A stretch of DNA of 64,000 nt from Methylocystis sp. L43 (GTDB lineage Bacteria > Pseudomonadota > Alphaproteobacteria > Rhizobiales > Beijerinckiaceae), in NCBI RefSeq assembly GCF_015709525.1, contig NZ_JADNRA010000020.1:1-64000 (forward strand). Reading direction: 5' to 3'. The position numbers and the translations under genes are program-made. Shown in pieces: positions 12,670 through 57,511 of the stretch. The stretch's first letter is position 1. Each line of letters begins with the position of its first letter. The notes below the pieces were generated by a model, which was not told where the DNA came from, ran no database searches, and worked only from the letters and a program-made list of their open reading frames with translations.

Positions 12670-12675
12670 ATTATA
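12670..12675 (-). promoter_or_regulatory. Likely -10 element of the rpoH promoter
   Basis: A perfect TATAAT lies on the minus strand 79 nt upstream of the rpoH start. The best -35 candidate 17 nt further upstream, TTTCCA, is weak. No sigma-32-type CTTGAA/CCCCAT pair is obvious, so housekeeping transcription is more likely than autoregulation. The remaining 12592-12845 gap has no recognised gene. Confidence 0.5.
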
Positions 12676-12845
12676 GGGCGCCCCTAGTGGGCTGGAAAAT
12701 GACAATTGCGTGAAGGGACGCTAAAGCACGGATTAAGATTCAGCAATGTGAATGACGCGTTTTCAGAGGCTCGGCCGCGCAAGTTTGCCGCGCAAGATTG
12801 GCGAAGATTCTGCCCGTTATGATTTCGCGATCTTCTGGCGAGAAT

Positions 12846-16488: not shown

Positions 16489-17012
16489 TCGACCGCCGCC
16501 GCCTGCTCGGACTCGCCCTGCTCTTGCCCCTGCCGCTGTCGCAAGCCGCGACGGCGCTGGCCGAAGAGCCGCGCAAACGCCTGCTCGTTCTCGATTTCGA
16601 GCTGGTCGACACGTCAAACGAGCCTGTCGACCAAAGCGCCGAACATGCAAAAAGACTGGCGCGGGCGCGTGACGACATCGGGGCGGGACTCGCCGCGCGG
16701 GGCGTCTATGACGTCGTCGACCGGGCTCTCATTGCGGCGGATCTCGACGCGATCTTGAAACAAACCTACATTCGCACCTGCAACGGCTGCGAATTGTCGC
16801 TTGCCCGCAAGGCCGGCGCCGATCTCGTTCTGACGGGCGTCGTCAATAAGGTCAGCACGCTGATCCTCAGCATGGGCGTTTCAATCGCGCGCGTTTCGAC
16901 GGGCGAACTGATCTATCATCAGGGGTTCGATTTTCGCGGCGACAATGATCAATCCTGGGCGCGCGCGACGAAATTCTTCGTCGATCGTATCGCCCGCGAT
17001 CCGCTGAATTGA
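16485..17012 (+). CDS. Secreted DUF3280/DUF2380-like protein
   Basis: The 175-residue product starts with MIDRRRLLGLALLLPLPLSQ, a signal peptide. The mature part has LLVLDFELVDTSNEP and AGADLVLTGVVNKVSTLILS, the pattern of DUF2380/DUF3280 proteins of unknown function, plus a CNGC pair in RTCNGCELSLARK that could bind metal or form a disulfide. The start overlaps the stop of the metallopeptidase gene. The frame stays open upstream, but the signal peptide fixes this start. Confidence 0.7.
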   Translation: MIDRRRLLGLALLLPLPLSQAATALAEEPRKRLLVLDFELVDTSNEPVDQSAEHAKRLARARDDIGAGLAARGVYDVVDRALIAADLDAILKQTYIRTCNGCELSLARKAGADLVLTGVVNKVSTLILSMGVSIARVSTGELIYHQGFDFRGDNDQSWARATKFFVDRIARDPLN

Positions 17013-17027
17013 GCCAAGGAGGCCCGT

Positions 17028-18020
17028 ATGAGCCAGAGCGCTGGCTGTGAACCGACGGCGGCGTCGCGCCCACCCTGGTCGATGGTGGCGCAAGCCCGCG
17101 CGCGCGGCGCCTTGCTCGACGCGCTCGTGCGGCGGGCGCAGGCGCTGCCGCCCATCCGCATGGGCGTTATCCACCCTTGCGACGCGCGCTCGGTCGAAGG
17201 CGCGATCGCCGCGCGCGACAAAGGGCTGATCGTCCCCACCTTCATCGGACCGCGCACAAAAATCGAGGCGGCCGCGCGCGCGAGCGGCGTCTCGCTCGAA
17301 GGCGTCGAAATCGTTGACGCGCCACACAGCCACGCCGCCGCCGATCAGGCGGTGGAGCTGGTTCGTCGCGGCCGGCTGCACGCGCTGATGAAAGGCGCGC
17401 TGCATACGGACGAACTGATGACCGCGGTCATACGCGACGGCGCCGGCCTGCGCACGGACCGGCGGATCAGCCATGTCTTTGTGATCGACGCGCCGTACTA
17501 CCACAAGTTGCTGCTCGTCACCGACGCGGCGATCAATATCGCGCCGACGCTCGACACCAAGCGCGACATCGTGCGCAACGCCATCGATCTCGCGCATGCG
17601 ATCGGCATCGAGCGTCCCAAGGTGGCGCTGCTTTCGGCCGTGGAGACGGTCGAGGGGAAAATCCCCTCGACCATCGAGGCGGCGGCGCTGTGCAAGATGG
17701 CCGACCGCGGCCAGATCGCCGGCGCCGAGCTTGACGGACCGCTGGCCTTCGACAACGCCATCTCGCGCGAAGCGGCCGAAGCCAAGCACATAGAGTCCGA
17801 GGTCGCCGGCGACGCGGACATTCTGGTCGCGCCCGATCTCGAGGCGGGCAATATCCTGGCGAAGCAGCTCGTCTTCCTCGGCGGCGCCGATACGGCGGGG
17901 CTGGTCCTCGGCGCGCGCGTCCCGATCGTGCTGACGAGCCGCGCCGACGACGTCGATTCGCGCGTCGTCTCTTCGGCGCTGGCGCAGATTTTCACGCATC
18001 GGCCGCGCGCCGCGCCTTAG
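17028..18020 (+). CDS. Phosphate acetyl/butyryltransferase-like enzyme
   Basis: The 330-residue product belongs to the Pta/Ptb family that moves an acyl group between CoA and phosphate. The fold is seen in [31 protein letters not shown], the [12 protein letters not shown] strand and the late [20 protein letters not shown] block. Its length fits a lone catalytic domain of the kind also found in MaoC-Pta fusions. AAGGAGG precedes the ATG. No acetate or butyrate kinase is adjacent, which is unusual. Specificity for acetyl- versus longer acyl-CoA cannot be read from the sequence. Confidence 0.85.
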
Positions 18021-18086
18021 CGTTCTCGACAGAACGCCCCCCGCGTGGCAGAACGCGGCGCAAGATTTCCCGAAAAGGGCGGCTGA

Positions 18087-18211
18087 CCTTCGCCCACATG
18101 CTTCGAGACGGCTCCTGCGGAGCCTCCCCAGCATGAGGGCGCAAGCGGCGCGCTTTACGTTTCCTCATCCTGAGGAGCCCGCGGAGCGGGCGTCTCGAAG
18201 GACGAGGAAAA
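18087..18211. repeat. Dispersed palindromic intergenic repeat upstream of pheS
   Basis: Two arms face each other: a left arm with CTTCGAGACGGCTCC near 18102, and a right arm opening with CCTCATCCTGAGGAGC and closing with GTCTCGAAGGACGAGG near 18210. The same arms recur at 33057-33240. This is a mobile-looking palindromic repeat common in the intergenic DNA of this order. The rest of 18021-18231 holds no gene that I can recognise. Confidence 0.8.
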
Positions 18212-18231
18212 CGTCCACATTAGAAACCAAT

Positions 18232-19311
18232 ATGACCGACCTCGCCAAACTCGAAGAAGACACGCTGCGCCAGATCGACGAGGCCGCCGACGAGGCGGCG
18301 CTCGAAGCCGTGCGCCTCTCCTCGCTCGGCAAGAAGGGCGCAATTTCGGCGCTGCTCGCAACGCTCGGAAAAATGTCGCCCGAGGAGCGCAAGACCGAGG
18401 GCGCGAAGATCAATGCGCTAAAAGACAAGGCGGCCGAGGCGATCGCCGCGCGACGCGAACGGCTTGCTGAAGCGGCTTTGGAAGCGCGCCTTACGGCCGA
18501 GACGCTCGATATGACGCTGCCCGCGCCGGCAAGTCCGCTGGAGCGCGGTCGCATCCACCCGATTTCGCAGGTCACCGACGAACTCTCCATCATCTTTGCC
18601 GACATGGGCTTCGCGGTCGCCGAGGGGCCGGACATCGAGAGCGACGACTATAATTTCACCAAGCTCAACTTCCCCGAGGGGCATCCCGCGCGGGAGATGC
18701 AGGACACGTTCTTTCTGACCGCCGAGTCAGGCGAAAAGCGGCTGCTGCGCACCCATACGAGCCCGGTGCAGGTGCGCACCATGCTGTCGCAGGCGCCGCC
18801 GATCCGGGTCATCTGCCCGGGCCGGGTCTATCGCTGCGACTTCGACCAGACGCATACGCCGATGTTCCATCAGATCGAAGGACTCGTCATCGATGAGACG
18901 ACGCATCTTGGGCATCTCAAATGGACGCTCGAAGAATTCCTAAGGAGCTTCTTCGAAGTGAAGGGCGTAAAGCTGCGCTTTCGTCCCTCCTTCTTCCCCT
19001 TCACCGAACCGTCGATGGAGGTCGACGTTCAGTGCCGGCGCCAGGGCGGCGAAATCCGCTTCGGCGAGGGCGAGGACTGGATGGAGATTTTGGGCTGCGG
19101 CATGGTGCATCCCAATGTGCTCAGAAATTGCGGCATCGATCCCGACCGCTATCAGGGCTTCGCTTTCGGCGTCGGCGTCGACCGGCTGGCGATGCTGAAA
19201 TATGGCATGTCGGATCTGCGCGCCTTCTTCGACGCCGATACGCGCTGGCTGGAGCACTATGGATTCAGGCCGCTCGACTTCCCGACGCTCGCGGGCGGGT
19301 TGAGCAGCTAG
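18232..19311 (+). CDS. pheS: Phenylalanine-tRNA ligase alpha subunit
   Basis: The 359-residue subunit has the N-terminal coiled coil (residues 1-95) that binds tRNAPhe and the class II catalytic core: motif 2 in [20 protein letters not shown] and motif 3 in [17 protein letters not shown]. With PheT it charges tRNAPhe. The ATG at 18232 is chosen because the frame upstream runs through an intergenic repeat. The last residues (LAGGLSS) recur in degenerate form at 19838-19861, beyond a two-gene cassette that separates pheS from pheT. Confidence 0.97.
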
Positions 19312-44172: not shown

Positions 44173-45612
44173 TCAGAAGAGCGCCGGCGTCGCCTTGGAG
44201 CCCGTCGGAACCGGCTTTTCGTCTCCTTCCACTGCGCGAGGCAGACAGACGCGCGCGATCAGCCCGTTCGGCTCCCGATCGAGCAGCGACACGGATCCGC
44301 CGTGGTTCTCGACGAGCGAGCGCACAATCGATAGGCCGAGTCCAAATCCGCTGTGCGCGTCGAGCGTTCGTCCCGGCTGACCGCGAACGAAGGGCTCAAA
44401 TGCAGTGTTCTTGCCGTCCGCTGACATTCCCGGTCCGTCGTCGACGACGTCCACCTCGATGAGCTCTCCCGGGCCGTCCGCGATGTAGATGTCCACGGTC
44501 TTCGCGTGATGCGTCGCGTTTTCGACGAGATTGGTGAAAATGCGCTGCACGTCGCAAATCGATCCGAAGACCATCTGGTGGCCATCGCCATGGTAGGTCA
44601 CATGATGACCAAGGTCGCAGAACTCGTCGGCGACGGTTTGCAGAACGCTGTCGAGATCGACCAGGGAACAGTCGGACGTGTCGTCTCCTTCGGCGCGCAA
44701 ATACTGCAGATTCTTGAACAGCATGGCGTCCATGAGATCGACGTCGCGCATCATCCGTTGCTGAAGGCTTTGATCTGACACGAATTCCGTTTTCAGCTTC
44801 AAGCGCGTGATGATCGTTCGCAGATCGTGACTGACCGCCGCAAGCACATGGGCTCTCGCGGCGATCATCTTGCTGATGCGCGCCTGCATACGATTGAGCG
44901 AACGGGTCAATTCGCGAACTTCCTGGGGACCTCGCTCCGGGAGCTGCGCCTTCGTATCGACATCGTTTGGAATCTGCTCAGCATATTTTGCCAGTCGTCG
45001 TAGCGGCGCCATGATTGCGTTCAGCGCCCAGAACACGAAGATCGCCGTGAATATGATAAAGGACAGCGCCGTTCGCGCCCCCTGAGTCAGAATAAACGGT
45101 TCGTCATCGGCATGTTGCCACAGCCATCGCCATATCGAACCGGGAGATTTTTGATGCTCGGCGATCGAGACCGTCGCATAGCCGCCCTTATGCAATTCGA
45201 CGGCGAGGACGCCGTAATCTTCGGGCGTTGAACTGTCGACCTTGAACACGTCTGCGCCGTTCCACAACAGTGAGTCGATGTGGCGGATTTCATTGTCAAA
45301 GGCGAGATCGCCGCCGCCCGTCGAAGATGTCGCCGCCGGAGGGCGCGACTCCTGAATCTCGATACTGGCGTAGGGAACGGCGTGAGAGAGCGCTGAAATG
45401 ACATTGGCTCTCTCCGGAAGCGGCGCGACGTCCAGAGCGAGGATTATGCTCGCGATGAAGTCTCCTTGGTCGACGATGTGCCGCCTGCCGAACACATGAA
45501 ACATGCCGATGACGATGGTCTGGAACGCCACGATCGACACGAAAATCAGCAGCGTGATTTGCACGGCCAGTTTGTTGAGCCGGAAACGCCAGGGAAGGCG
45601 AGCAGGATTCAT
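44173..45612 (-). CDS. Sensor histidine kinase (EnvZ-like)
   Basis: The 479-residue kinase has an N-terminal membrane segment (AVQITLLIFVSIVAFQTIVIG), a periplasmic domain, a second segment near residue 185 (LSFIIFTAIFVFWALNAI), a HAMP linker and HisKA. The H-box is VSHDLRTIITRLKL near residue 265, with Ile in place of the usual Pro. The ATPase has NLVENATHHA, VVDDGPGMSADG and GFGLGLSIVRSLVENHGG. It overlaps the regulator gene by 4 nt. It probably controls the divergent SulP gene; the signal is unknown. Confidence 0.9.
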   Translation of the reverse strand: MNPARLPWRFRLNKLAVQITLLIFVSIVAFQTIVIGMFHVFGRRHIVDQGDFIASIILALDVAPLPERANVISALSHAVPYASIEIQESRPPAATSSTGGGDLAFDNEIRHIDSLLWNGADVFKVDSSTPEDYGVLAVELHKGGYATVSIAEHQKSPGSIWRWLWQHADDEPFILTQGARTALSFIIFTAIFVFWALNAIMAPLRRLAKYAEQIPNDVDTKAQLPERGPQEVRELTRSLNRMQARISKMIAARAHVLAAVSHDLRTIITRLKLKTEFVSDQSLQQRMMRDVDLMDAMLFKNLQYLRAEGDDTSDCSLVDLDSVLQTVADEFCDLGHHVTYHGDGHQMVFGSICDVQRIFTNLVENATHHAKTVDIYIADGPGELIEVDVVDDGPGMSADGKNTAFEPFVRGQPGRTLDAHSGFGLGLSIVRSLVENHGGSVSLLDREPNGLIARVCLPRAVEGDEKPVPTGSKATPALF

Positions 45613-46334
45613 GCGCGCGCCACGTGAGTGGAGAAAATATAGCCCTCGGAGCGAACCGTCTGGATGAACGCGGGCTTTCTTGGATCCGCTTCTATTTTCT
45701 GTCGAAGCCGGCTGATCAGAACGTCGATGCTGCGCTCGAAGGGCCCGGTCGTCGGGCCATGCGTCATGTTGATCAATTGCTCGCGCGTCAACACCCGATT
45801 AGGATTTTCGCACAAAGCGTGCAGCAGATCGAATTCGGCGCCGGTCATGGCCACCTTTATGCCGCATGGCGCCACGACCTCTCGAGCGAGCACATCGACG
45901 CGCCAGCCGGAGAAAAGATACGCTTGCCGTGCGGCGCGCCCGTCGACGGCGTTCGCGTTCGGGGTTTCAGTTCGCCTCAAAACGGCGCGGATGCGCGCCA
46001 GCAGCTCGCGCGAATTGAAAGGCTTGACGATGTAATCGTCGGCCCCGAGCTCCAGACCCAATATCTTGTCGATGTCCTCCGACTGCGCCGTCAGTATGAT
46101 TATAGGGATGCGTCTCTCGGATCGCACCCGCCGGCAGATCGACAAGCCGTCTTCGCCGGGCAGATTAAGATCAAGGATCAGCAGGTCATAGGCGCCGGCG
46201 CTGAACGCAGCGTCCATTGCCTGGGCGTTTGCGGCTACCTTCGTCTGAATGTCGTGCGCCGCGAGATAGAGGGAGATGAACTCGCCGATTTCGGCGTCAT
46301 CCTCGACGATCAGAATTGAAACGGGAGGGGTCAA
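45609..46334 (-). CDS. OmpR-family response regulator
   Basis: The 241-residue regulator has a receiver domain with the phospho-acceptor Asp in YDLLILDLNLPGEDG, the Lys in DDYIVKPFNSREL, and an OmpR-type winged-helix output (LTREQLINMTHGPTTG, then SIDVLISRLRQKIE). It is encoded with its kinase and diverges from sulP. A direct repeat about 50-65 nt upstream of its start is a candidate binding site. Confidence 0.93.
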   Translation of the reverse strand: MTPPVSILIVEDDAEIGEFISLYLAAHDIQTKVAANAQAMDAAFSAGAYDLLILDLNLPGEDGLSICRRVRSERRIPIIILTAQSEDIDKILGLELGADDYIVKPFNSRELLARIRAVLRRTETPNANAVDGRAARQAYLFSGWRVDVLAREVVAPCGIKVAMTGAEFDLLHALCENPNRVLTREQLINMTHGPTTGPFERSIDVLISRLRQKIEADPRKPAFIQTVRSEGYIFSTHVARA

Positions 46335-46597: not shown

Positions 46598-48418
46598 ATG
46601 AAAAGCAAGGCTCAGGCTGTCACCCACGACCTCGAAGCGAGCGCGGCAGACGCGAACGCCTCTCAGCGCGCCGGATCGTCGGCGCAGGACGGATGGCTGG
46701 GCTTAGGCGGATCAGACGGAGATTTCGCCGGCGCGACAGGACCAAGTCACATCGCCGTGGACGAGAATCATGCACAAGGGACGCTTCCAACAAGGTTCAC
46801 GCCGAAGACCGGCCTCGCCGGATTGGCCCAAAATTGGCGCGCGGACGTTCTGTCCGGCTTTCTGGTGTTTCTTATCGCGCTGCCGCTATGCCTTGGCATT
46901 TCGATGGCGTCGGGCTTTCCGCCGCAGGCGGGCATCATCACCGCCGTCGTGGGCGGCCTGCTGGTGTCGCGCATCAACGGATCTTTCGTCACCATCACCG
47001 GCCCGGCGGCGGGCCTCATCGTGGTCATTCTGGATTCGGTGCAGGCGCTCGGCGGCGGCGACGCGAAAGCCGGTTACCACTACACCTTGGCGGCCATTGT
47101 TTGCGCCAGCGTCATTCAGATGCTGATGGGCGTCATGAAGGCCGGCAAGATGAGCGCCTTTTTTCCGTCCTCGGCCGTGCATGGCATGTTGGCGGCGATC
47201 GGCATCATCATCATGGCCAAGCAGATTCACGTCATGCTCGGCGTGAAGCCGGACGCGCAGACTCTGTTCGAGACGATTGGCGCAATCCCCGCAAGCATTC
47301 GCGACATGAATCCGGAAGTCGCCATCATCGGCGGCCTTGGGCTTTTGATCTTGATCGCCTGGTCGCTGGTGAAGAGTCGCCGACTAAAAATGATCCCGGC
47401 GCCACTCGTCGTCGTGATCATCGGCATGGCGCTCGCGCAATATTACGATCTCGACGATGAACATATCTATCTCTTCCTGCCCGACACGCCGTTCCTGCCG
47501 CATCACGAATTCACGATCGGTCCGAAATTCCTTGTCTCCATTCCGCAGAACTTCCTGTCCGGCTTCGCCTTCCCCGACTTTTCGCTGATTCGCTCCAGCG
47601 TATTCTGGCAGCAGGTCTTCGCCATCTGTCTCGTTGGCAGCCTGGAAAGCCTGCTCAGCGCGGCGGCGGTCGATAAGCTCGACCCCTATAAGCGCACCTC
47701 AGATCTCAACCGCGACCTCGCGGCGGTCGGCTTCGGCAATATTATATGCGGCCTGATTGGCGGCATGCCGATGATCGCTGAAATCGTCCGCAGCTCCGCC
47801 AATGTGAATAACGGCGCGCACACAGGGTGGGCGAATTTCTTCCACGGGTTGTTCCTGCTGATCTTCGTCGCCCTTTTCCCGAGGGTCATTCACGAGATCC
47901 CGCTCGCCTCGCTTGCTGCGCTGCTGGTGTTCACCGGCTACCGACTTGCCTCGCCGCTCGAGTTCAAGAAGACGTTGGCGATCGGCTGGGACCAGCTCAC
48001 CGTTTTCGTGATTACCATCATCGGTGTTCTGGCGACCGATCTCTTGATCGGCGTCGCCATCGGCATCGCCGCCGAGTTCCTGTTCCACTTCTGGCGCAGC
48101 GTCAATTGGGGGCAGGTCTTCAAGCTGCATCGCGACGTCTTGGAGAGCGAACCCGGCGTCTATCATGTCAGGATCGGCGGCGCGGCCTTTTTCGCCAATT
48201 ACCTCGCGCTCAAGGGCGATCTCGCCAAGCTTCCAAAGGGCAAGACGGTCATCTTTGATCTCTCAGACTCCTGGTGCGTCGATCATACGGTGATGGAGAA
48301 CCTTCATCACTTTTGCGAGGACTATAAAGCAAACGACGGCCACGCAGAGATTTGCGGACTGGATCAACACGTCGCGACGTCGAAGCATCCTCTCGCCCCG
48401 CGCAAGCGCACCGCCTGA
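46598..48418 (+). CDS. SulP-family inorganic anion transporter
   Basis: The 606-residue protein has a polar N-terminal extension of about 78 residues, then a SulP transmembrane core (DVLSGFLVFLIALPLCLGIS, SFVTITGPAAGLIVVILDSV and GSLESLLSAAAVDKLDPYKR) and a short C-terminal STAS-like domain (GKTVIFDLSDSWCVDHTVME). SulP proteins carry sulfate, bicarbonate or other anions; the core resembles those annotated as bicarbonate transporters, but this is not decisive. It is followed after 51-60 nt by the hydrogenase-4-like genes and diverges from the two-component system. Confidence 0.9.
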   Translation: MKSKAQAVTHDLEASAADANASQRAGSSAQDGWLGLGGSDGDFAGATGPSHIAVDENHAQGTLPTRFTPKTGLAGLAQNWRADVLSGFLVFLIALPLCLGISMASGFPPQAGIITAVVGGLLVSRINGSFVTITGPAAGLIVVILDSVQALGGGDAKAGYHYTLAAIVCASVIQMLMGVMKAGKMSAFFPSSAVHGMLAAIGIIIMAKQIHVMLGVKPDAQTLFETIGAIPASIRDMNPEVAIIGGLGLLILIAWSLVKSRRLKMIPAPLVVVIIGMALAQYYDLDDEHIYLFLPDTPFLPHHEFTIGPKFLVSIPQNFLSGFAFPDFSLIRSSVFWQQVFAICLVGSLESLLSAAAVDKLDPYKRTSDLNRDLAAVGFGNIICGLIGGMPMIAEIVRSSANVNNGAHTGWANFFHGLFLLIFVALFPRVIHEIPLASLAALLVFTGYRLASPLEFKKTLAIGWDQLTVFVITIIGVLATDLLIGVAIGIAAEFLFHFWRSVNWGQVFKLHRDVLESEPGVYHVRIGGAAFFANYLALKGDLAKLPKGKTVIFDLSDSWCVDHTVMENLHHFCEDYKANDGHAEICGLDQHVATSKHPLAPRKRTA

Positions 48419-48478
48419 TCCGTAAAGTTCACGCAAGGCGCCGCTGACGACCGCCGCGCCGATTCGAAGGTGACACGT

Positions 48479-50476
48479 ATGCCGCTCTATCTGGCGCTGA
48501 CCTGTGTCAGCGCCCTGCTCGCCGTCAGCGTCTACGCCATCCTCGACAGGCGGAACCATGACGTCAGCCGCAACGTCTATCGCCTTTGCATCGGCCTCTG
48601 CGGCGTCCTCTTCCTTGCAGCGGTCATGCCCAGGGGCGCTCATGTCGTTTCGACGGCTTTGCCGCTCGGACTGCCGTGGATCGGCATGCATTTTCGCATC
48701 GACGTCCTGACCGCCTTTTTTCTCGCTGTCGTCAATCTGGGCGGCGCGGCGGCGAGCGCCTATGCGATCGGCTATGGCGCGCATGAGAAAGAGCCGATGC
48801 GCGTGCTGCCGTTCTACCCAGCTTTTCTCGCTGGCATGAACCTCGTCGTGCTGGCCGACGACGCCTTCACCTTTCTCGTCGCTTGGGAGTTCATGTCGCT
48901 TGCGTCATGGGCGCTCGTGCTGACGCACCATCATGAGGAGGAGAACAGGCGCGCCGGCTTCGTCTATTTGTTGATGGCGAGCTTCGGCGGTTTTGCGCTG
49001 TTGATGGCGTTTGGCGTTCTCGGGGGCGTCGGCGGCGCCTATGACTTCGCCTCGATTCGCGAGTCGACCAAGGCGGGATGGACGTCGGGCCTCGTCCTGG
49101 CCCTCGCCATTGTCGGTATGGGGTCCAAAGCCGGACTCGCGCCCTTACATATCTGGCTGCCGCTCGCCCATCCGGCGGCGCCGAGCCACGTATCGGCCCT
49201 GATGAGCGGCGTTATGACGAAAGTCGCCGTCTACGGCTTCATTCGTGTCGTGTTCGATTTGCTCGGACCGCCGGCCTTCTGGTGGTCGGTCGAGCCCATG
49301 ACTTTTGGCGCAGCGAGCGCCCTCATCGGCGTTCTGTTCGCGACGATACAGAGCGATCTGAAGAAGCTGCTCGCCTACAGCACCATCGAAAACATCGGCG
49401 TCATCTTCATCGCGCTCGGACTTGCCCTGGCGTTCAAGGCCAATGGCATGGCGCTGCCGGCCGCCCTCGCCTTCACTGCCGCGCTCTTTCACGTTTTCAA
49501 TCATTCGCTGTTCAAGAGCCTGCTGTTCTTTGGCGCCGGCGCGGTGCTGAACGCGAGCGGCGAAAGAAGCATCGAGCGCCTCGGCGGTCTTATTCACTCC
49601 ATGCCGAAAACGGCGTTCCTTTTTCTCGGCGGCTGCGTCGCCATCGCCGCCCTGCCGCCGCTGAACGGCTTCGTCTCGGAGTGGCTGGTCTTTCAGGCGA
49701 TCCTGCTGAGCCCGTCGCTGCCGCAATGGACCGTGAAGCTCCTCGTTCCGGCGGTCGGCGTAGCGCTGGCGCTGAGCGCAGCGCTCGGCGCCGGCTGTTA
49801 CATACGCGCCTATGGGATAGCTTTTCTGGGACGGCCCCGCAGCGAAGCGGCGCGCCAGGCGCATGATCCAGATCGCTGGTCGCTCGCGACCATGGCGGTT
49901 TTGCTGACGCTGTGCCTCATCGCCGGTCTGCTGCCGGGCCTCCTCATCGACACGATCTCACCCGTGGCGAAAGATTTTGTCGGCGGCCGCATGCCGACCC
50001 AGGCTGAACTCTCCTGGCTCTCGATCGCGCCCGTCGCCGAAAGCCGCAGCTCCTACAATGGGCTTCTGGTCTTCCTGTTCATTCTTTTCTCCGCCTGTTC
50101 GGCGAGATGGGTCATCCACAAATTCGGCACGGCGCGGTCGCGGCGCGCGCCGGCCTGGGATTGCGGCTACTTCGAAACCAGCCCCACGACGCAATACACA
50201 GGCAGCAGCTTCGCGCAGCCGATCCGGCGCACCCTTGGCGTCATCGCCTTTTCGGTGCGGGAGCGCCTCGACATGCCGGTGCCTGGCGATACGCGAGCCG
50301 CGCGCTTGAGCGTCGAAATCAAGGATCGGATCTTCGACTATCTCTATGCGCCCCTCACGCGCGCGGTTGAGTCCTGCGCCGCCGGGCTGAACATCCTCAG
50401 TCTCCTGACGATCCAGGAATATCTCGCGCTGGTATTCGCGGCGCTCGTCTTCCTCCTGGTGCTGGTGGCGATATGA
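48479..50476 (+). CDS. Hydrogenase-4/complex-I antiporter-like subunit (HyfB/NuoL type)
   Basis: The product of about 665 residues has some 15 membrane segments. FLVAWEFMSLASWALVLTHH holds the proton-pathway Glu, and GSKAGLAPLHIWLPLAHPAA the Lys with its following helix. These are landmarks of Mrp-type ion-translocating subunits. HyfB-like subunits carry a C-terminal extension with DCGYFETSPTTQYTGSSFAQ, which is seen here. ATG at 48479 or GTG at 48470 are both possible. The next gene starts inside its stop. Confidence 0.88.
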   Translation: MPLYLALTCVSALLAVSVYAILDRRNHDVSRNVYRLCIGLCGVLFLAAVMPRGAHVVSTALPLGLPWIGMHFRIDVLTAFFLAVVNLGGAAASAYAIGYGAHEKEPMRVLPFYPAFLAGMNLVVLADDAFTFLVAWEFMSLASWALVLTHHHEEENRRAGFVYLLMASFGGFALLMAFGVLGGVGGAYDFASIRESTKAGWTSGLVLALAIVGMGSKAGLAPLHIWLPLAHPAAPSHVSALMSGVMTKVAVYGFIRVVFDLLGPPAFWWSVEPMTFGAASALIGVLFATIQSDLKKLLAYSTIENIGVIFIALGLALAFKANGMALPAALAFTAALFHVFNHSLFKSLLFFGAGAVLNASGERSIERLGGLIHSMPKTAFLFLGGCVAIAALPPLNGFVSEWLVFQAILLSPSLPQWTVKLLVPAVGVALALSAALGAGCYIRAYGIAFLGRPRSEAARQAHDPDRWSLATMAVLLTLCLIAGLLPGLLIDTISPVAKDFVGGRMPTQAELSWLSIAPVAESRSSYNGLLVFLFILFSACSARWVIHKFGTARSRRAPAWDCGYFETSPTTQYTGSSFAQPIRRTLGVIAFSVRERLDMPVPGDTRAARLSVEIKDRIFDYLYAPLTRAVESCAAGLNILSLLTIQEYLALVFAALVFLLVLVAI

Positions 50477-51426
50477 CGCTTCTTTTCAACCTTATGGCGC
50501 AGAGCGTCCAAATGCTTTTGGTGCTGGCGCTGGCGCCGCTGCTTATCGGCTACGTTCGAAAGCTGAAGGCGCGTCTCTTGCGCCGCAAAGGACCGCCGAT
50601 CATTCAACCCTGGCTCGATCTCATTCGGCTGCTGCGCAAGGAAGTCGTCCTCGCCGAAAACGCGTCGTGGCTGTATCGCGCGGCGCCCTATCTGATCTTT
50701 GCGATGATCTGGGTCTCCGCAGCGCTCGTGCCGACATTCGCCACGGGACTGACGTTCAGCTGGTCGGCCGATCTCATCGCCATCATCGCCCTGCTCGGCA
50801 GCGCCCGTTTTTTCCTTGCGCTCGCGGGCATGGACATTGGAACGAGTTTTGGCGGCATCGGCTCGAGCCGCGAGGCGATGTTCGGCTCGCTCGCGGAGCC
50901 GGCGATGATGATGATCGTCTTCACCGTCTCCTTCGTCGCCGGAACGACGCAGCTTTCCGAAATCGCCGCTTATATGGCCGGAAATCTGGAATTGCGCGCC
51001 TCCGTCGGCATGGCGCTCGTCGCGCTCCTTATCGTCGCCATTGCGGAGAATGGCCGGATTCCCGTCGACAATCCGGCGACCCATCTCGAGTTGACGATGG
51101 TGCATGAGGCGATGGTTCTCGAATATTCCGGGCGCTATCTCGCGCTCATCGAACTCGCCTCCGCGCTCAAACTGCTCCTTTATCTCTCGCTCATCGCCTG
51201 CGTTTTTTTCCCCGTTGGACTCGCGTCGCATGATGCGGGCGCGGAGGCGATGATGATCGGCCTTTGCGCATACGTCCTCAAGCTGGCGATCGGCGGCGGC
51301 GCGCTCGCGCTATTTGAAACATCCACGGCCAAGATGCGCATCTTCCGCGTGCCGGACTTTCTCGGCGCGGGGCTGATGCTTGGCCTCCTCGCGACGCTGC
51401 TGGTTTTCGTGACACGGAGCCTCTGA
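50473..51426 (+). CDS. Hydrogenase-4/complex-I anchor subunit (HyfC/NuoH type)
   Basis: The 317-residue membrane protein matches NuoH/HycD/HyfC. RRKGPPIIQPWLDLIRLLRK is the conserved cytoplasmic loop and AENGRIPVDNPATHLELTMVHEAM the quinone-site loop of the family with its acidic residues. It links the soluble arm to the membrane arm. It overlaps both neighbours (ATGA, then TGATG), so the operon is translationally coupled. Confidence 0.92.
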   Translation: MTLLFNLMAQSVQMLLVLALAPLLIGYVRKLKARLLRRKGPPIIQPWLDLIRLLRKEVVLAENASWLYRAAPYLIFAMIWVSAALVPTFATGLTFSWSADLIAIIALLGSARFFLALAGMDIGTSFGGIGSSREAMFGSLAEPAMMMIVFTVSFVAGTTQLSEIAAYMAGNLELRASVGMALVALLIVAIAENGRIPVDNPATHLELTMVHEAMVLEYSGRYLALIELASALKLLLYLSLIACVFFPVGLASHDAGAEAMMIGLCAYVLKLAIGGGALALFETSTAKMRIFRVPDFLGAGLMLGLLATLLVFVTRSL

Positions 51427-52088
51427 TGGAGCTTTTGACAATCGACATCGCCCATGTGCTCGCGGGCGCGCTCCTCCTGACGAGCTTCATGCTGCTGTAT
51501 CAGGACCGACTGTCGGGGCTCATCAATATCTACACGCTTCACGCCGTCATTCTGTCGCTGTCGGTCGCCTGGCAGGCCTATTACCAGGATGCGCCGCACC
51601 TCTATCTCACGGCCGCCATCGCAGCGATCTTCAAGGCGCTGATCATTCCCTTCAGCCTTCGCCACATCATCAAGCGCTTGCGCATCCACCGCACCGTGGA
51701 GGTCGTTGGCGGCGTCGGCATAACCATGCTCATCGGCATATTTCTCGTGGCGCTGTCGCTCGTCGTCATGCTGCCGGCGACCGCCTCCGCCGATCCGCTG
51801 TCGCGCGAAGACATTGCATTCGCCTTGGCGATCGTGCTGCTGGGGCTGTTGATGATGGTGACCCGACGCAACGCCGTGAGCCAGATTATCGGTTTCATGT
51901 CGCTGGAAAATGGTCTGGTTCTGGCGGCGGCAGGGGCGAACGGCATGCCGCTCGTCGTCGAGATCAGCGTCGCCTTTTCCATTCTCATCGCCTTCATCGT
52001 GATCGGCATCTTCCTGTTTCGCATTCGCGAGCGATTCGACAACGTCGACCTTTCTGAACTCGATCGCGTGCGCGGAGGACGTTCATGA
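51426..52088 (+). CDS. Hydrogenase-4 membrane subunit (HyfE type)
   Basis: The 220-residue protein has about seven membrane segments and the HyfE core (LSREDIAFALAIVLLGLLMM, NAVSQIIGFMSLENGLVLAA). HyfE resembles the NuoK region of complex I. It begins inside the stop of the preceding gene and ends 4 nt inside the next. Confidence 0.88.
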   Translation: MELLTIDIAHVLAGALLLTSFMLLYQDRLSGLINIYTLHAVILSLSVAWQAYYQDAPHLYLTAAIAAIFKALIIPFSLRHIIKRLRIHRTVEVVGGVGITMLIGIFLVALSLVVMLPATASADPLSREDIAFALAIVLLGLLMMVTRRNAVSQIIGFMSLENGLVLAAAGANGMPLVVEISVAFSILIAFIVIGIFLFRIRERFDNVDLSELDRVRGGRS

Positions 52089-53533
52089 GTTCCGATCTTT
52101 TCATGGTCTCGAACGCGCTTGTCGGCATTCCCGCCGTCGCGGCCATCGCCGTTGCGCTTGAACCGGCCTACCGACGCTCGGCGATCATCAATCTCTGCGC
52201 CTCCGGCGCGACGTTTCTCTTCGCGCTTGTGCTTTTCGTCGTCGAACCCGAACGCGGCGGCTATCTCTTCGTCGACGACCTCAACATCGTCTTTATTGTG
52301 CTCTCGACCTTCATCGGCTTCACCACGAGCGTCTACAGCGCGAGCTATATCGACCATGAGATCGAAACTGGCCGGTTGACCACGAGAAACGTCCGCTTCT
52401 ATCACGCGATGTATCAGTCGCTGATGTGCGCGATGAATCTGGCGCTGCTCGCCAGCAACATCGGCCTCATGTGGGTCGCGGTCGAAGTCGCGACGCTGAC
52501 AACCGTGTTGATGGTCGGCATGTACCGCACGCCGCACGCTCTCGAGGCGGCTTGGAAATATTTCATCCTCGGCAGCGTCGGGATCGCGCTGGCGCTCTTT
52601 GGCACGATCCTCATTTACATGGCGGCCGAGCCAGTGCTGGGACAGGGCTATGACGCCATGGTCTGGACGACGCTGATGTCGCAAGCGCCGCAGTTCAATC
52701 CGCGGATGCTCAACGTCGCCTTCGTGTTTCTGATGCTCGGCTACGGCACCAAGGTTGGGTTGGCGCCGATGCACGCCTGGCTTCCGGATGCGCATGCGGA
52801 AGGCCCGACGCCGATCTCGGCGGTCTTGTCCGGCCTCCTTCTGAATGTCGCGCTTTATGCGGTGCTACGGTTCAAGATGCTGCTGACGGCCAATGCGGCG
52901 GCGATTACGCCAGGCCCGCTGATGATCACCCTCGGCCTCGCATCTCTCATCATGGCGGCTTTCATGCTTTACCGCCGCGGCGACATCAAGCGGCTGTTCG
53001 CCTACTCCTCCATCGAGCACATGGGCATTATCGCCTTCGCGTTTGGCATGGGCGGACCGCTCGCCAACTTCGCCGGTCTGCTGCACATGACGATGCACAG
53101 CCTGACGAAGTCCGCGATCTTCTTCTCGGTCGGCCACATCGCGCAGGTCAAGGGCACGCAGAGAATCGCCGACATCCGAGGTCTGACGCAGAGCCAACCG
53201 GCGCTCGGCTGGTCCCTCGTCGCTGGCGTCGTCGCGATCATCGGTCTGCCGCCGCTGGGCATCTTCATGAGCGAATTTCTCGTCGTGAGTTCGACCTTCG
53301 CGCGCCAGCCGCTCCTCGCTATTCCGCTGGTTTTCGGCCTCCTGCTGGCTTTTGGCGCCTTGCTGTTGCGGCTCACCGGGATGGCGTTCGGCGAGCCAAG
53401 CCGTGACCAAGGCGAGGTGAAGGCTTCCATGTGGCCTGTCTACGCGCATCTCTCGCTTGTGCTGCTGGCGGGAATCTACCTTCCCTCTCACGTCGTGACC
53501 TGGTTCCAGAACGTCGCGCGGCTCTTGGGTTGA
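52085..53533 (+). CDS. Hydrogenase-4 antiporter-like subunit (HyfF/NuoN type)
   Basis: The 482-residue protein is a second Mrp-type ion-translocating subunit. MWVAVEVATLTTVLMVGMYR and GYGTKVGLAPMHAWLPDAHA carry the Glu and Lys pathway residues, and YSSIEHMGIIAFAFGMGG is another family landmark. With the HyfB-like protein it gives two pump modules, as in hydrogenase-4. It overlaps the HyfE gene by 4 nt. Confidence 0.92.
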   Translation: MSSDLFMVSNALVGIPAVAAIAVALEPAYRRSAIINLCASGATFLFALVLFVVEPERGGYLFVDDLNIVFIVLSTFIGFTTSVYSASYIDHEIETGRLTTRNVRFYHAMYQSLMCAMNLALLASNIGLMWVAVEVATLTTVLMVGMYRTPHALEAAWKYFILGSVGIALALFGTILIYMAAEPVLGQGYDAMVWTTLMSQAPQFNPRMLNVAFVFLMLGYGTKVGLAPMHAWLPDAHAEGPTPISAVLSGLLLNVALYAVLRFKMLLTANAAAITPGPLMITLGLASLIMAAFMLYRRGDIKRLFAYSSIEHMGIIAFAFGMGGPLANFAGLLHMTMHSLTKSAIFFSVGHIAQVKGTQRIADIRGLTQSQPALGWSLVAGVVAIIGLPPLGIFMSEFLVVSSTFARQPLLAIPLVFGLLLAFGALLLRLTGMAFGEPSRDQGEVKASMWPVYAHLSLVLLAGIYLPSHVVTWFQNVARLLG

Positions 53534-53550
53534 GTTCAAAGGATGAAAAG

Positions 53551-55068
53551 ATGAACTTCGCCAGCAAACAGATGCCGGCCCCGCCATCGCCGCCGACGTG
53601 TCTGCCCTGGCCGCGTGAGATCGTCGACAGAGCTGGTTGGCTCGCTTTCGCCGAAAGTCTTTCGAAGGGCGAGCGCGAACTCCTCAGCCTGTGGGGCGAA
53701 CCTTCGAGCGTTCACATGGCGGTGCTCGAAGAGCGGGAGCCGCGCCTACGCATCATCACATTGGAGTGTCTTGAAGGCTGCTTTCCATCCGTCGGGCGAT
53801 TGCATCCGCCGGCGTTGAGGCTCGAGCGCGCGATCCGCGATATTTATGGGCTGAGGGCCGAAAACGCGCCCGACGCGCGGCCCTGGCTCGATCATGGCCG
53901 TTGGGGCGTGCGTCATCCTTGCAACGACCCCGAAAAGATCGACTCCACCAAAGACAGCTACGAATTCCTTCCCGCGGAAGGCGAACCGCTCCATCAGATA
54001 CCCGTCGGACCCGTGCATGCCGGCATTATCGAGCCGGGCCATTTCCGCTTCTCAGCCAATGGCGAAACCGTCGTGCGGCTTGAGGAGCGGCTCGGCTTCG
54101 TTCACAAGGGCGTCGATCACCTGATGACCGGCGCCTCGATCGAGCGCGCCGCGCGTCTCGCGGCGCGCGTGTCGGGCGACAGCACGGTCGCCTACAGCCT
54201 CGCCTTTTCGCAGGCGGTTGAGGCGGCGTTCGACGTCAATGTTCCGCCGCGCGCGACATATCTGCGCGCGCTGATGGCCGAACTGGAACGCCTCGCCAAT
54301 CATTTCGGCGATATCGGCGCCATCTGCAACGACGCGGCCTTCGCATTGATGCATGCGCAATGCGGCATCGTCCGCGAACGCATTTTGAGAGAAGCGGCAA
54401 ATTGCTTCGGACACCGCCTGATGATGGATCGCATCGCGCCGGGAGGCGTCCTCGTCGATCTGGCGCGAGAGAAAGTCGCGGCGCTCTTCACGCTGATCGA
54501 GTGGATGGAGCTGATGACTCCCCGGTTCATCGCGCTCTTTGGCGACACGACGTCGCTGCAGGATCGGACCGTCGGAACCGGCGTCGTCAGCGAGGCGCTC
54601 GCAAAGCAATATGCGAGCGGGGGCTATGTTGGACGCGCCTCGGGCCGGACGTTCGACGCGCGCAAGGCGATCGGTTACGCCCCCTATCCGCAGCTGAAGT
54701 TCGAGATCGGCGCCTCGAAGGAAGGCGACGTCGATGCGCGCGTCTGGGTCCGCTTCGACGAAATCAAAGCCTCGCTGCGAATCCTCAGACAGATTCTCGA
54801 CGAGGCGCCGGAGGGGCCGATCATCGCCGCCTGGGCGCTGCCGGAAGACTGGACGCGCGAAGGCGCCGCGCTCGTTGAAGGATTCCGCGGCGACATCTTC
54901 GTTTGGCTGCGCATGCGCGCGGACGGCGTGGTGCAGCGCTGTCATTTGCGCGATCCGTCCTGGTTCCAATGGCCGCTGCTCGAAGCGGCGATCAAGGACA
55001 ACATCGTCGCCGACTTCCCCCTCTGCAACAAATCCTTCAACTGTTCCTACTCGGGGCACGATCTCTAG
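53551..55068 (+). CDS. Large-subunit homologue (HyfG/NuoCD type) lacking NiFe ligands
   Basis: The 505-residue product has a NuoC-like N-terminus and a NuoD/HycE-like body (VGPVHAGIIEPGHFRFS, ERLGFVHKGVDHLM). HycE has the NiFe ligand motif RVCGICGFAHS; here the same place near residue 205 reads RVSGDSTVAYS, without Cys. The second pair (DPCxxC) is replaced near the end by CNKSFNCSYSGHDL, Cys492 and Cys498 only, spaced by five. It therefore cannot bind a NiFe centre as hydrogenases do. ATG at 53551 follows GGATG. This fits the Ehr (hydrogenase-related) class. Confidence 0.9.
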   Translation: MNFASKQMPAPPSPPTCLPWPREIVDRAGWLAFAESLSKGERELLSLWGEPSSVHMAVLEEREPRLRIITLECLEGCFPSVGRLHPPALRLERAIRDIYGLRAENAPDARPWLDHGRWGVRHPCNDPEKIDSTKDSYEFLPAEGEPLHQIPVGPVHAGIIEPGHFRFSANGETVVRLEERLGFVHKGVDHLMTGASIERAARLAARVSGDSTVAYSLAFSQAVEAAFDVNVPPRATYLRALMAELERLANHFGDIGAICNDAAFALMHAQCGIVRERILREAANCFGHRLMMDRIAPGGVLVDLAREKVAALFTLIEWMELMTPRFIALFGDTTSLQDRTVGTGVVSEALAKQYASGGYVGRASGRTFDARKAIGYAPYPQLKFEIGASKEGDVDARVWVRFDEIKASLRILRQILDEAPEGPIIAAWALPEDWTREGAALVEGFRGDIFVWLRMRADGVVQRCHLRDPSWFQWPLLEAAIKDNIVADFPLCNKSFNCSYSGHDL

Positions 55069-55080
55069 GACACGCGCGCG

Positions 55081-55596
55081 ATGCAGAAATTCTTGCTTCA
55101 GGGCCTGCTCCGCCGCGCTCTGACCGAACCGGCGCCCATTCCCAATGCGACGTCGATCGCTGAACTCGGCTACACGCTCGGCCGAACGGCGCGCCAGAAA
55201 CTGGGACGCAGCCTGTCGATCCGCGAAGTCGACGCGGGGTCCTGCAACGGCTGCGAACTGGAAATTCACGCGCTCAACAACGCCTACTACGATCTCGAAA
55301 GATTCGGCCTGCGTTTTGTGGCGTCGCCGCGCCACGCCGACGTCTTGCTCGTCACGGGTCCAGTGACGAAAAACATGCGCGAAGCGCTTGAACGAACCTA
55401 TGCGGCGACGCCCGATCCAAAATGGGTGATCGCTGTCGGCGACTGCGCATTCGATGGGGGAATTTATTGCGAGAGCTACGCATGTGTTGGCGGCGTCGCG
55501 AAGGTCGTCCCCGTCGATCTTCATATTCGCGGCTGTCCGCCTGATCCGACGACGCTGCTCAAAGGGCTGATCGCCTTCGTTGAAACGATGAGCTGA
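55081..55596 (+). CDS. Fe-S small subunit homologue (HyfI/NuoB type)
   Basis: The 171-residue product keeps all four N2-type cluster ligands: Cys55 and Cys58 in GSCNGCELE, Cys122 in VGDCAFDG and Cys152 in RGCPPDP. Extra Cys130 and Cys135 lie in IYCESYACVGG. The complex therefore can carry an electron to the membrane arm even without NiFe. No separate 2[4Fe-4S] ferredoxin (HyfH) gene is next to it. Twelve nt separate it from the large-subunit gene. Confidence 0.9.
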   Translation: MQKFLLQGLLRRALTEPAPIPNATSIAELGYTLGRTARQKLGRSLSIREVDAGSCNGCELEIHALNNAYYDLERFGLRFVASPRHADVLLVTGPVTKNMREALERTYAATPDPKWVIAVGDCAFDGGIYCESYACVGGVAKVVPVDLHIRGCPPDPTTLLKGLIAFVETMS

Positions 55597-55762: not shown

Positions 55763-57511
55763 ATGCAGACGCGCCAGAATGCCAAGATTTTTCGAGCTGA
55801 GCCTCTCTGGAGCGGCGCAAAGGCGAAGATCCATTTACTTAAAGACGTCAAGCGTTCGGCAATTGCGCTTACGGCTGCTGGCGTCGTGGCTCTATTGCCG
55901 CCACATCGCGCGATGGCCATGACGGACAAGGAGCAGCTGCAAATGCTCCTTGGTCAGGTGATGCAACTTAAAGCCCGCATGGATAAAAAGGACCGAGATG
56001 AGCAGGAGCGTCGCCGGGCCGAAACAGTAAATGCTCGCAGCGCGAACGTCAGGGAAACGGCGCTGACGCCGGTCGCCGCCGTCGCCATGCCAAGGATCCC
56101 AGATAGGTTCGTCTACAAGGGTCTGGAGATTATTCCCGGCGGCTTTCTGGCGCTTGAGTCGGTCTGGCGCAACCACTGGGTCGGCGCCGACGTCGCCACG
56201 CCCTTCAACGCCATTCCCTATGGCTTCGCGACGGCCGGACATACGGACGAGTTTCACTTCAGCGCCCGCGCGACGCGCCCCGCGCTCCTCGTGCGCGGCG
56301 ATCTCAGTCCCACGACGCATATCCAGGGCTATTTCGAAACGGACTTTCTCGGCGCGGCCCAGACGGCGAACGCGAACCAGAGCAATTCGTACAATCTCCG
56401 CGTTCGACAGGCCTATACGAATATCGACAATGACGATTATGGGCTTCATTTCACGGCAGGTCAGACCTGGTCGCTCATAACTATGAATTCAGCTGGCACC
56501 CGGCCCGACACGTCGTTGCAGCCGCCGACGATCGATCACAATTATATGCCGGGCTATGTCTGGGACCGAAATCCTGGCGTCCGCATTTACAAGGATTTCG
56601 GAAAGCAATTCTGGTTGGCTTTGGCCGCGGAAGGTTCAGCGAACACGTTCGCAGCGCCCGGCCCAGCGTTCGGCCCTGTCTCCACTCTCCTTCCCAACAA
56701 TCTCGGGATCCCCGCGCCCGCTCTACTCGCCTTGGCGACGAACGGCGGCTCGCTCAACACTTTGGATACTTATTCCTTTAATCGACTTCCCGATCTTGTC
56801 GGCAAGGTCGCATGGGATGCGCCACTCGGCGACCGGACGGTGCATCTGGAAGCGTTCGGGGTGGCGCGTGAGATGACCGAGCGCCTCTATTTCGGCAATC
56901 ATCGTATTTGGTCTGGCGCCGTTGGCGCCGGCGCAATTATCCCGATCATTCCCAAGCTCCTGGAATTCCAAGCGTCGGGCATGATCGGGCGTGGCGTCGG
57001 CCGCCTTGCATCGAGTCAGCTTCCCGATGCGACCTATTCAGTTTTCGGCGCGCTCCAGCCGCTCCATCAGCGAAGCCTCCTCGTCGGCGCAACGCTGCAT
57101 CCGACGCCGCAAACCGATGTTTTCGCTTTCGCGGGCGGCGACATCGCCGGTAAGAACTCGCAAGTCGCAGCCATCAATGGCACGATCTACGCGGGCGGAT
57201 ATGGCAATCCGCTTTATAACAATATCGGCTGCGGCCTGGAAAATCCGATATCGCAGATTACGCCGGGGGTCTCCGCCGCCGTTCCGCTCGCCGCGCTCGG
57301 CAATCCCCTTTTCGGTTGTTCCGGACAGACCCACGCGCTACGCGAAATCACCACTGGAGCCTGGCACACCTTCTACGAGGGACCGGCCGGCAAAATCAGA
57401 GTCGGCGTGCAGTTCGCCCATATCATTCGTAACGGCTTCACCGGGGTCGGCGGCGCGCCGCACGGCTCGGAAAACACCATCTTGACGAGCTTCCGCTACT
57501 TTCCCTTCTAG
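55763..57511 (+). CDS. Outer-membrane porin-like protein
   Basis: The 582-residue product has a twin-Arg-less signal region (SAIALTAAGVVALLPPHRAMA), a short coiled-coil part (LQMLLGQVMQLKARMDKKDR) and a beta-rich body with alternating hydrophobic residues, ending FRYFPF with a terminal Phe, the signature of outer-membrane barrels. The start at 55763 follows AGAGGA. It may be an anion or general porin; its position after the SulP/Ehr genes hints at supply of a shared substrate, but the gap of about 170 nt and the weak terminator leave this open. Confidence 0.75.
   Translation: MQTRQNAKIFRAEPLWSGAKAKIHLLKDVKRSAIALTAAGVVALLPPHRAMAMTDKEQLQMLLGQVMQLKARMDKKDRDEQERRRAETVNARSANVRETALTPVAAVAMPRIPDRFVYKGLEIIPGGFLALESVWRNHWVGADVATPFNAIPYGFATAGHTDEFHFSARATRPALLVRGDLSPTTHIQGYFETDFLGAAQTANANQSNSYNLRVRQAYTNIDNDDYGLHFTAGQTWSLITMNSAGTRPDTSLQPPTIDHNYMPGYVWDRNPGVRIYKDFGKQFWLALAAEGSANTFAAPGPAFGPVSTLLPNNLGIPAPALLALATNGGSLNTLDTYSFNRLPDLVGKVAWDAPLGDRTVHLEAFGVAREMTERLYFGNHRIWSGAVGAGAIIPIIPKLLEFQASGMIGRGVGRLASSQLPDATYSVFGALQPLHQRSLLVGATLHPTPQTDVFAFAGGDIAGKNSQVAAINGTIYAGGYGNPLYNNIGCGLENPISQITPGVSAAVPLAALGNPLFGCSGQTHALREITTGAWHTFYEGPAGKIRVGVQFAHIIRNGFTGVGGAPHGSENTILTSFRYFPF

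Follow-up and report, generated by a model that had tools for sequence, protein, structure and literature searches.

Locus and gene content

We analysed a 64,000-nucleotide stretch of Methylocystis sp. L43 (contig NZ_JADNRA010000020.1, positions 1 to 64,000 of the forward strand; hereafter the window), which carries an operon for a membrane-bound complex related to complex I and formate hydrogenlyase (FHL); its large subunit has lost the ligands of the NiFe site. The gene for a SulP-family anion transporter (46598-48418; Pfam PF00916, 204 bits) stands 51 bp 5' of a run of six genes (48470-55596), named here hyqB, hyqC, hyqE, hyqF, hyqG and hyqI after the published complex identified below; all seven lie on the plus strand, with overlaps or gaps of no more than 51 bp. 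The product of hyqB (48470-50476) is a HyfB-like, antiporter-like membrane subunit of NuoL type (668 residues; NF005086, 829.9 bits), that of hyqC (50473-51426) a NuoH-like membrane anchor with the glutamates of the E-channel (317 residues; top PDB match HycD, 7z0s_D, E = 4.8e-41), that of hyqE (51426-52088) a HyfE-like membrane subunit (220 residues; NF008556 at 87.6 bits, not reaching the cut-off of 136, and PF00420 at 24.3 bits, slightly under its cut-off), and that of hyqF (52085-53533) a HyfF-like, antiporter-like subunit (482 residues; NF005043, 837.9 bits). These are followed by hyqG (53551-55068), a NuoC/NuoD fusion of 505 residues homologous to hydrogenase large subunits, and by hyqI (55081-55596), a NuoB-like small subunit of 171 residues (NF005012, 137.4 bits, over the cut-off). 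The complex thus has six subunits, four in the membrane (B, C, E and F) plus a NuoCD-type G and a NuoB-type I, and is a relative of complex I and FHL.

For comparison we used the best 80 of 533 related stretches found in a scan of genome contigs, and counts out of 81 refer to the window's protein together with those of the 80 loci. The nearest named hyq loci are from Methylocystis (93% identical; the window's own genome measures 4.06 Mb), and the succession B-C-E-F-G-I is the same in the complete loci of the set. An initial annotation of the window, made from the letters alone, had called the complex hydrogenase-4-like; this is loose, as neither the list of open reading frames (ORFs) nor Pfam or NCBIfam gave a counterpart of HyfA, HyfD or HyfH in the operon. 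Nor did the window operon contain HycF/HyfH, HycB/HyfA, a formate dehydrogenase, NuoE/F/G/I or any recognised Hyp or HycI gene, and HyqI is the sole Fe-S protein recognised in it.

We also scanned the 80 loci in six frames, 1.49 Mb in all with flanks of 4.9 kb upstream and 9.5 kb downstream (medians), for the ferredoxin motif CxxCxxCxxxC in ORFs of at least 60 residues. The matches were a 493-residue ORF with two motifs in L057, on the opposite strand 4.6 kb downstream of hyq and outside the six-gene run, a 278-residue ORF with one motif in L082, likewise not part of the run, and four short ORFs (68-91 residues). A ferredoxin gene of the NuoI/HycF type is not a member of the operon. In L082 the motif-bearing ORF accompanies a second set of NuoB-like and antiporter-like genes (1-2745) 5' of the hyq operon.

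The large subunit has lost all four NiFe ligands

The top match of HyqG in a phmmer search of solved structures was E. coli HycE (7z0s_E, E = 7e-49), whose PDB chain numbering runs 12 ahead of that in the structure paper, as deduced from E193, R478 and C531. The initial annotation had read RVSGDSTVAYS in place of RVCGICGFAHS of HycE and a C-terminus without DPCxxC, and the alignment upholds both: the first motif occupies residues 206-216, and the protein ends in CNKSFNCSYSGHDL at 492-505. All four HycE ligand positions could be mapped without local gaps, with C241, C244, C531 and C534 corresponding to S208, S211, S499 and G502 of HyqG. SGDS (residues 208-211; codons 54172-54183, plus strand; 81/81) hence stands where HycE has CGIC, and CNKSFNCSYSGHDL (codons 55024-55065, plus strand) where HycE has the DPCYSCTDR region. 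Conservation of the NiFe cysteines at shifted positions is ruled out by the ungapped alignment around each of them.

The substituting residues are themselves fixed: S208, G209, D210, S211, C492, N493, K494, S495, F496, N497, C498, S499 and G502 are each found in 81 of 81 proteins, so that neither chance nor a sequencing slip accounts for them, and we see a conserved design, not decay. Three cysteines belonging to HyqG itself (C259, C492 and C498) are equally invariant in this set. Among 36 Hyq orthologues picked for breadth, D210, K494, S495, N497, G502 and D504 were present in all (and in 43/43 in another comparison), F496 in 35, S208 in 33 (L139 has Cys), and S211 and S499 in 32 each.

HycE is cleaved after residue 537. 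When the HycE alignment is extended ungapped, residue 505, the last of HyqG, falls on HycE 537, leaving HyqG without a C-terminal extension; Pantoea HycE, unlike HyqG, continues past TDR. The hydrogenase domain of HycE spans residues 182-537, and in the FHL structure E193, R478, H284, E437 and R395 are described as lining the proton route (PMC9474812). These five residues are retained in HyqG as E161, R446, H251, E404 and R362, each with 97% or higher conservation across the 81 proteins; in the 36 chosen orthologues the last four are invariant and E161 is found in 35, with Ala in L132. The same paper terms the canopy Asp529 of HycE strictly conserved (PMC9474812), and this position is Asn497 in HyqG. 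Against complex I, D261 aligns with Nqo4 Asp139, and the residues at the positions of the quinone head-group ligands His38 and Tyr87 of Nqo4 are I160 and G209. Taken together, Asn497 for Asp529 and I160/G209 for His38/Tyr87 indicate a pocket that is neither a hydrogenase site nor a classical quinone site.

The small subunit keeps its Fe-S ligands and the membrane arm its pump residues

The initial annotation had the NuoB-like partner keeping Cys55, Cys58, Cys122 and Cys152, and this proved correct. The top solved match of HyqI is HycG (phmmer, E = 5.1e-37), and Cys55 is found in 81/81 proteins and Cys58, Cys122 and Cys152 in 80/81 each; all four also occur in each of the 35 wider Hyq rows with a hyqI match. 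The proximal 4Fe-4S site has a hydrogenase-type CxxC (Cys55 and Cys58; codons 55243-55254, plus strand) and lacks the tandem CC of NuoB. Two further cysteines, Cys130 (12/81) and Cys135 (30/81), are unconserved. Sprecher et al. 2012 prints HyqI cys-112 (PMC3357923), whereas the cluster cysteine of the window's HyqI and its relatives is at 122.

Charged residues of the membrane subunits are likewise maintained in at least 97% of the proteins compared: E140, K220, K251, H341, H345, K349 and E404 of HyqB (73 proteins), E134, E142, E192, E206, E212 and E217 of HyqC (75) and E134, K223, K342 and E397 of HyqF (79). HycC is reported to lack the lysine of transmembrane helix 7, having Leu208 there (PMC9474812), and HyqB keeps this lysine as K220.

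The cysteine trio is a unit, yet dispensable

In the 36 orthologues picked for breadth, the Cys259/492/498 trio was complete in 20, partial in seven and wholly absent in nine (L083, L087, L129, L130, L131, L132, L136, L138 and L139), where the three positions are replaced together by G/A/L, I/L and L/P. A quick tree built from 46 rows, in which the outgroup branches are long and deep placement is unsure, places Hyq in one clade (Shimodaira-Hasegawa-like approximate likelihood ratio test, SH-aLRT, 98). The zero-cysteine state comprises a single eight-row clade (SH-aLRT 99) together with L132; no fewer than four changes are required for the three states. The trio acts as one unit yet is dispensable. 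A distinct Ehr-like (energy-converting hydrogenase-related) cluster of a Caballeronia plasmid (L084, 6492-13876), with gene order C-E-F-G-I-B and the motifs SGVD and NEASFGLTISGCAR, has a long branch and does not fall within the Hyq clade.

The operon encodes the Hyq complex

The genes hyqRBCEFGI of Azorhizobium caulinodans have been described as those of an endo-hydrogenase (Ng 2009, PMC2650096; Ciccolella 2010, PMC2930871; Sprecher 2012, PMC3357923), at first as a Ni,Fe endo-hydrogenase (PMC2650096). Sprecher et al. reported that HyqG of eight genera is without both CxxC motifs and that Cys-258, -491 and -497 are "completely conserved", called a NiFe site in HyqG "uncertain, if not unlikely" and treated the catalytic site as speculative (PMC3357923). 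The loss of the cysteines is therefore not new but has been in print since 2012.

Among 391 genomes from a single family, one alone matched a published primer sequence and so gave us A. caulinodans (G311, one contig, 5,369,772 bases). Its HyqG is 58% identical to that of the window and has SGDS, CNKSFNCSYAGHDL and cysteines 258, 491 and 497, which correspond to 259, 492 and 498 in the window; its HyqI is 67% identical, and the six structural genes come in the same order. The upstream regulator starts MITAAQLRAARALLG; weak Pfam matches make it a helix-turn-helix protein. Given these identities, motifs and cysteines, the window operon is Hyq, a complex within the loose Ehr class, with the NiFe ligands lost.

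Hyq is common, often in genomes where HypD or nifD was not found

We drew 299 genomes of the phylum and called Hyq at 400 bits or more with a profile model; the next matches scored at most 260 bits, and one truncated match of 247 bits (G132) was excluded. Hyq was present in 47 of the 299 genomes. HypD is required to provide the NiFe site with its Fe(CN)2CO moiety. In 27 of the 47 Hyq genomes HypD was not found at 1e-20, among them three genomes of one contig each (G185, G233 and G134) and one of three contigs (G270). Most of the 47 are draft or metagenome assemblies, so that some absences may be gaps. The missing HypD argues that Hyq as a class is independent of NiFe assembly. A nifD over the cut-off was missing in 36 of the 47, and both genes in 26, so recycling of nitrogenase-derived H2 cannot be the general role of Hyq.

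Compared with the other 252 genomes, nifD was somewhat commoner in Hyq genomes (11/47 versus 24/252; Fisher p = 0.012) and RuBisCO-family genes more markedly so (28/47 versus 51/252; p = 1.4e-7), both figures ignoring kinship. The window's own genome gave no RuBisCO match. It also gave no cbb3 oxidase match at 1e-100.

Regulation and neighbouring genes

In 57 of the 80 loci hyqR lies directly 5' of hyq; it does so neither in the window nor in the loci of SulP type. The remaining 23 are the 14 SulP loci and nine more, some of which are ended by contig edges. In the window's lineage SulP occupies the place of hyqR, adjoining hyq in 14/80 loci, each of which is Methylocystis-like by kinship, as well as in L142. 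The spacing points to cotranscription of SulP with hyq. The presence of SulP in this lineage suggests an anion, possibly bicarbonate, transport partner of Hyq, but its solved relatives, 5da0, a sulphate-type transporter, and 6ki1 (BicA), match at low scores, and the link was seen in Methylocystis-like loci only.

Between 34 and 102 bp 5' of hyqR we found the palindrome TGATGTTT-N-AAACATCA with at most three mismatches in 17 of 55 loci (0.12 expected); L079 and A. caulinodans (L159) carry it without mismatch. It is a likely candidate for the HyqR operator. No such palindrome was found upstream of the window operon, where hyqR is missing too.

Ng 2009 reports NifA and sigma54 sites before hyqR and a nifA-dependent reporter in A. 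caulinodans (PMC2650096). Our pattern scan, a weak one that recovers typical nif promoters in only two of four nif loci, found no sigma54 or NifA-like site upstream of the window operon and no convincing one in the 500 bp before A. caulinodans hyqR. Sigma54-like sites appeared in one of 70 hyq upstream regions (background 8/783 windows) and in none of the ten from Hyq genomes with nif, and NifA-like sites in nine of 70 (background 48/783). These scans speak, though weakly, against NifA/sigma54 control as a trait of the family; the reporter result for A. caulinodans stands.

Divergent from SulP in the window are genes for an OmpR-type response regulator and a histidine kinase (HATPase_c and HAMP; 44173-46334, minus strand). 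Of the 14 SulP loci, 11 have both genes at this place, and the pair may therefore control the SulP-hyq operon. On the other side, 3' of hyqI, lies a porin-like ORF of 581 residues (55766-57511, plus strand) with no Pfam or NCBIfam match at 0.001 and an aligned homologue in L007 only; ten loci share a different ORF family at this place. Two contigs of one Methylocystis metagenome-assembled genome carry a hyq of SulP type (85% identical) and one of hyqR type (65%), respectively (L011 and L019), with SulP fragments downstream of the latter, which points to either a mixture or two copies.

About 30 bp 3' of hyqI, L123 has a gene for a flavoprotein of the pyridine-nucleotide-disulphide type (12031-13434), which may serve that lineage as electron partner. 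We rejected it as a general partner of Hyq, the only other occurrence being a distant homologue (27%) in L138. Immediately 5' of the zero-cysteine operon of L136 are genes for a hexapeptide-repeat protein (15806-16363, minus strand) and a CitMHS/TrkA_C transporter (16404-18380, minus strand). The former, for which Pfam gives Hexapep only, is possibly a gamma-carbonic anhydrase; with this one hexapeptide protein noted in the loci, we rejected a carbonic-anhydrase link.

A predicted mechanism and its difficulties

We give roughly even credence to Hyq being a minimal, complex-I-like, redox-coupled and reversible proton pump that is linked to quinone, has a single Fe-S cluster and works with a pocket that has been remodelled. 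The 4Fe-4S cluster of HyqI would be its only redox cofactor. A soluble electron carrier would probably dock where NuoI or HycF sits in complex I or FHL, and the cluster would pass electrons to or from ubiquinone, the most likely substrate, or another hydrophobic acceptor held in the SGDS and NKSFN pocket. Through the relay of E161, R446, H251, E404 and R362 and through the E-channel, turnover there would drive, or be driven by, the passage of protons in HyqB and HyqF. Growth of Azorhizobium on N2 would be supported by the complex, and the H2 phenotypes may be indirect, through co-deletion of hyqR or the redox state, or direct. The initial annotation had proposed electron transfer coupled to ion pumping without hydrogen chemistry, with an unsettled electron partner. 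The first part agrees with the loss of the NiFe ligands, the intact Fe-S ligands and the conserved pump residues, and the partner is indeed unsettled; the words "without hydrogen chemistry" are not supported as put, because of the published Azorhizobium phenotypes: H2 chemistry is doubtful by sequence but not disproved.

Nitrogenase produces H2 in any case, so that intact hyq must, where hup is missing, bring about H2 consumption in some way. Several points weigh against the quinone-linked pump. One is the published genetics of A. caulinodans, which speak for genuine turnover of H2. At 20 uM O2, H2 evolution was 12 in the wild type, 16 in hup, 175 in hyq and 540 in hup hyq, about 30-fold less in hup with hyq intact than in the double mutant, and at <1 uM O2 it was 7,100, 61,000, 2,600 and 14,000, respectively, with 56,600 in a nifK hup mutant that has hyq and no nitrogenase activity (PMC3357923). 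The high evolution in hup and nifK hup relative to hup hyq argues in the same direction, as does the finding that in nodules H2 was evolved by the hup hyq double mutant only (PMC2930871). Two features of the protein count against the pump as well, namely Asn497 at the canopy aspartate and I160/G209 at the quinone head-group positions, the latter meaning that quinone binding would need a different geometry. Finally, both substrate and electron partner are predicted.

Other results bear on how these phenotypes are read. Deletion of hyq lengthened the diazotrophic doubling time from 7.2 to 8.8 h (2.3 to 2.4 h on ammonium), and the diazotrophic deficit remained at 20% H2 (PMC2650096); H2 supply is therefore not the whole role of Hyq. 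The deletion hyqRI7 removed the regulator hyqR too (PMC2650096), and the published accounts of Azorhizobium hyq, in the parts available to us, contain neither complementation nor point mutants. In G311 there is one HypD (at 677 kb), NiFe-large-subunit matches occur at 661-674 kb only (the last weak, 27.9 bits) apart from the weak match of HyqG itself, and no FeFe-hydrogenase was found. Accordingly, either H2 is turned over by Hyq in the absence of NiFe, or the phenotype arises indirectly.

Alternative explanations

An alternative that we consider unlikely is a reductase resembling the sulfane sulfur reductase MBS of Pyrococcus, with either the proximal 4Fe-4S cluster or the Cys259/492/498 trio as the site at which polysulfide, disulfide or a similar small molecule is directly reduced. 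Archaeal MBS, a relative of the hydrogenase MBH, is reported to reduce polysulfide at the cluster without two of the four NiFe cysteines and without equivalents of H38, Y87 and E21, and the joint loss of the trio (in one clade and L132) is what a joint site would predict. The Hyq cluster, however, has all four ligands in hydrogenase spacing where MBS has three, E161 is kept, the trio is wholly missing in nine of 36 orthologues, and the remaining MBS cysteines are described as unnecessary for activity.

We regard as improbable a true hydrogenase of a kind without NiFe, whose Fe-S cluster, or a new centre in the SGDS/NKSFN pocket, would split or make H2. In its favour are the uptake and evolution of H2 that depend on hyq in A. 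caulinodans, evolution being seen in the nifK hup mutant too, the authors' claim that H2 recycling persists after loss of the 20-gene hup/hyp operon (PMC2930871) and the hydrogenase complement of G311. The hyq deletions that carry this case, however, also lost hyqR, the trio site is absent in nine of 36 orthologues, nifD over the cut-off is missing in 36 of 47 Hyq genomes, and the published accounts, as far as available to us, report no purified activity and have a catalytic site that their authors call speculative. We give a slimmer chance again to Hyq as a fourth chemical kind of hydrogenase, one that would turn over H2 in vivo without NiFe, FeFe, Fe-guanylylpyridinol or Hyp by means of a 4Fe-4S cluster and a pocket of Ser, Asp, Lys and Asn, the cysteines being optional.

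Quite unlikely, too, is a role of Hyq with SulP, as a possible bicarbonate carrier, in energised CO2 or bicarbonate uptake or pH homeostasis. The SulP gene adjoining hyq in 14/80 loci, the hexapeptide-repeat protein and CitMHS-type transporter of L136, the beta-carbonic anhydrase reported to adjoin hyfBCEFG in A. caldus and the enrichment of RuBisCO-family genes would all fit, but the SulP link is seen in Methylocystis-like loci only, the RuBisCO association ignores kinship and fails in the window's own genome, a crude and weak pattern scan, which missed the L136 protein, found no carbonic anhydrase in the loci, and the invariant Fe-S site would be left unexplained. An ordinary NiFe hydrogenase with relocated ligands can be practically dismissed: the annotation of B, E and F of L085 as hydrogenase 4 (G being NADH-quinone oxidoreductase subunit C) and the 2009 description as a Ni,Fe endo-hydrogenase face the ungapped alignment, only three conserved cysteines, 27 of 47 genomes in which no HypD was found, and no recognised Hyp or HycI in the window operon.

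Comparison with known systems and implications

The closest system is Hyq of A. caulinodans, which shares the six genes in order, the HyqG motifs and the three cysteines, and differs in having hyqR and the palindrome upstream where the window has SulP. The initial annotation had pointed out that Ehr complexes with lost cysteines are known in general, and they are: group-4-like large subunits without the metal motifs are described from Sulfobacillus, comammox Nitrospira, the Candidate Phyla Radiation and others, in Sulfobacillus with nuoH-, nuoL-, HyfB- and HyfE-like neighbours as in Hyq. Ehr is a loose class whose definition covers the window complex, a likeness drawn from published descriptions; Marreiros 2013 and Coppi 2005 reportedly deal with it.

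With E. coli FHL and hydrogenase-4 (HycE and HyfG), Hyq shares the NuoC-fused large subunit, the CxxC spacing, the E193-type glutamate and the E-channel, but it lacks the NiFe ligands, a ferredoxin-type subunit and the C-terminal extension, and has Asn497 for Asp529. Complex I (Nqo4/Nqo6) resembles it in the absence of NiFe, in Asp139 (D261) and in the antiporter-like subunits; it differs in H38/Y87 (I160/G209 in Hyq), in tandem CC instead of CxxC and in NuoE/F/G/I, which are missing from the hyq operon. Pyrococcus MBS, like Hyq, is described as hydrogenase-derived, with NiFe lost and the pocket altered; it has a three-cysteine cluster, the cluster subunit MbsN and no E21 equivalent, whereas Hyq has four cysteines, E161 and no such subunit.

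To conclude, the anatomy of Hyq was already known, and what we add are the HypD and nifD counts, the optional trio, the persistent pocket residues, the lack of a ferredoxin subunit in the operon and the palindrome. Complexes of this Hyq/Ehr kind are common in the phylum, as seen in 47 of the 299 sampled genomes, and as several Hyq subunits are annotated as hydrogenase 4, predicted H2 metabolism can be inflated. Hyq joins a sequence without NiFe ligands to published H2 phenotypes, and Hyq genomes without HypD, together with natural zero-cysteine orthologues, allow this conflict to be put directly to the test. This family may also shed light on the loss of hydrogen chemistry in complex I.

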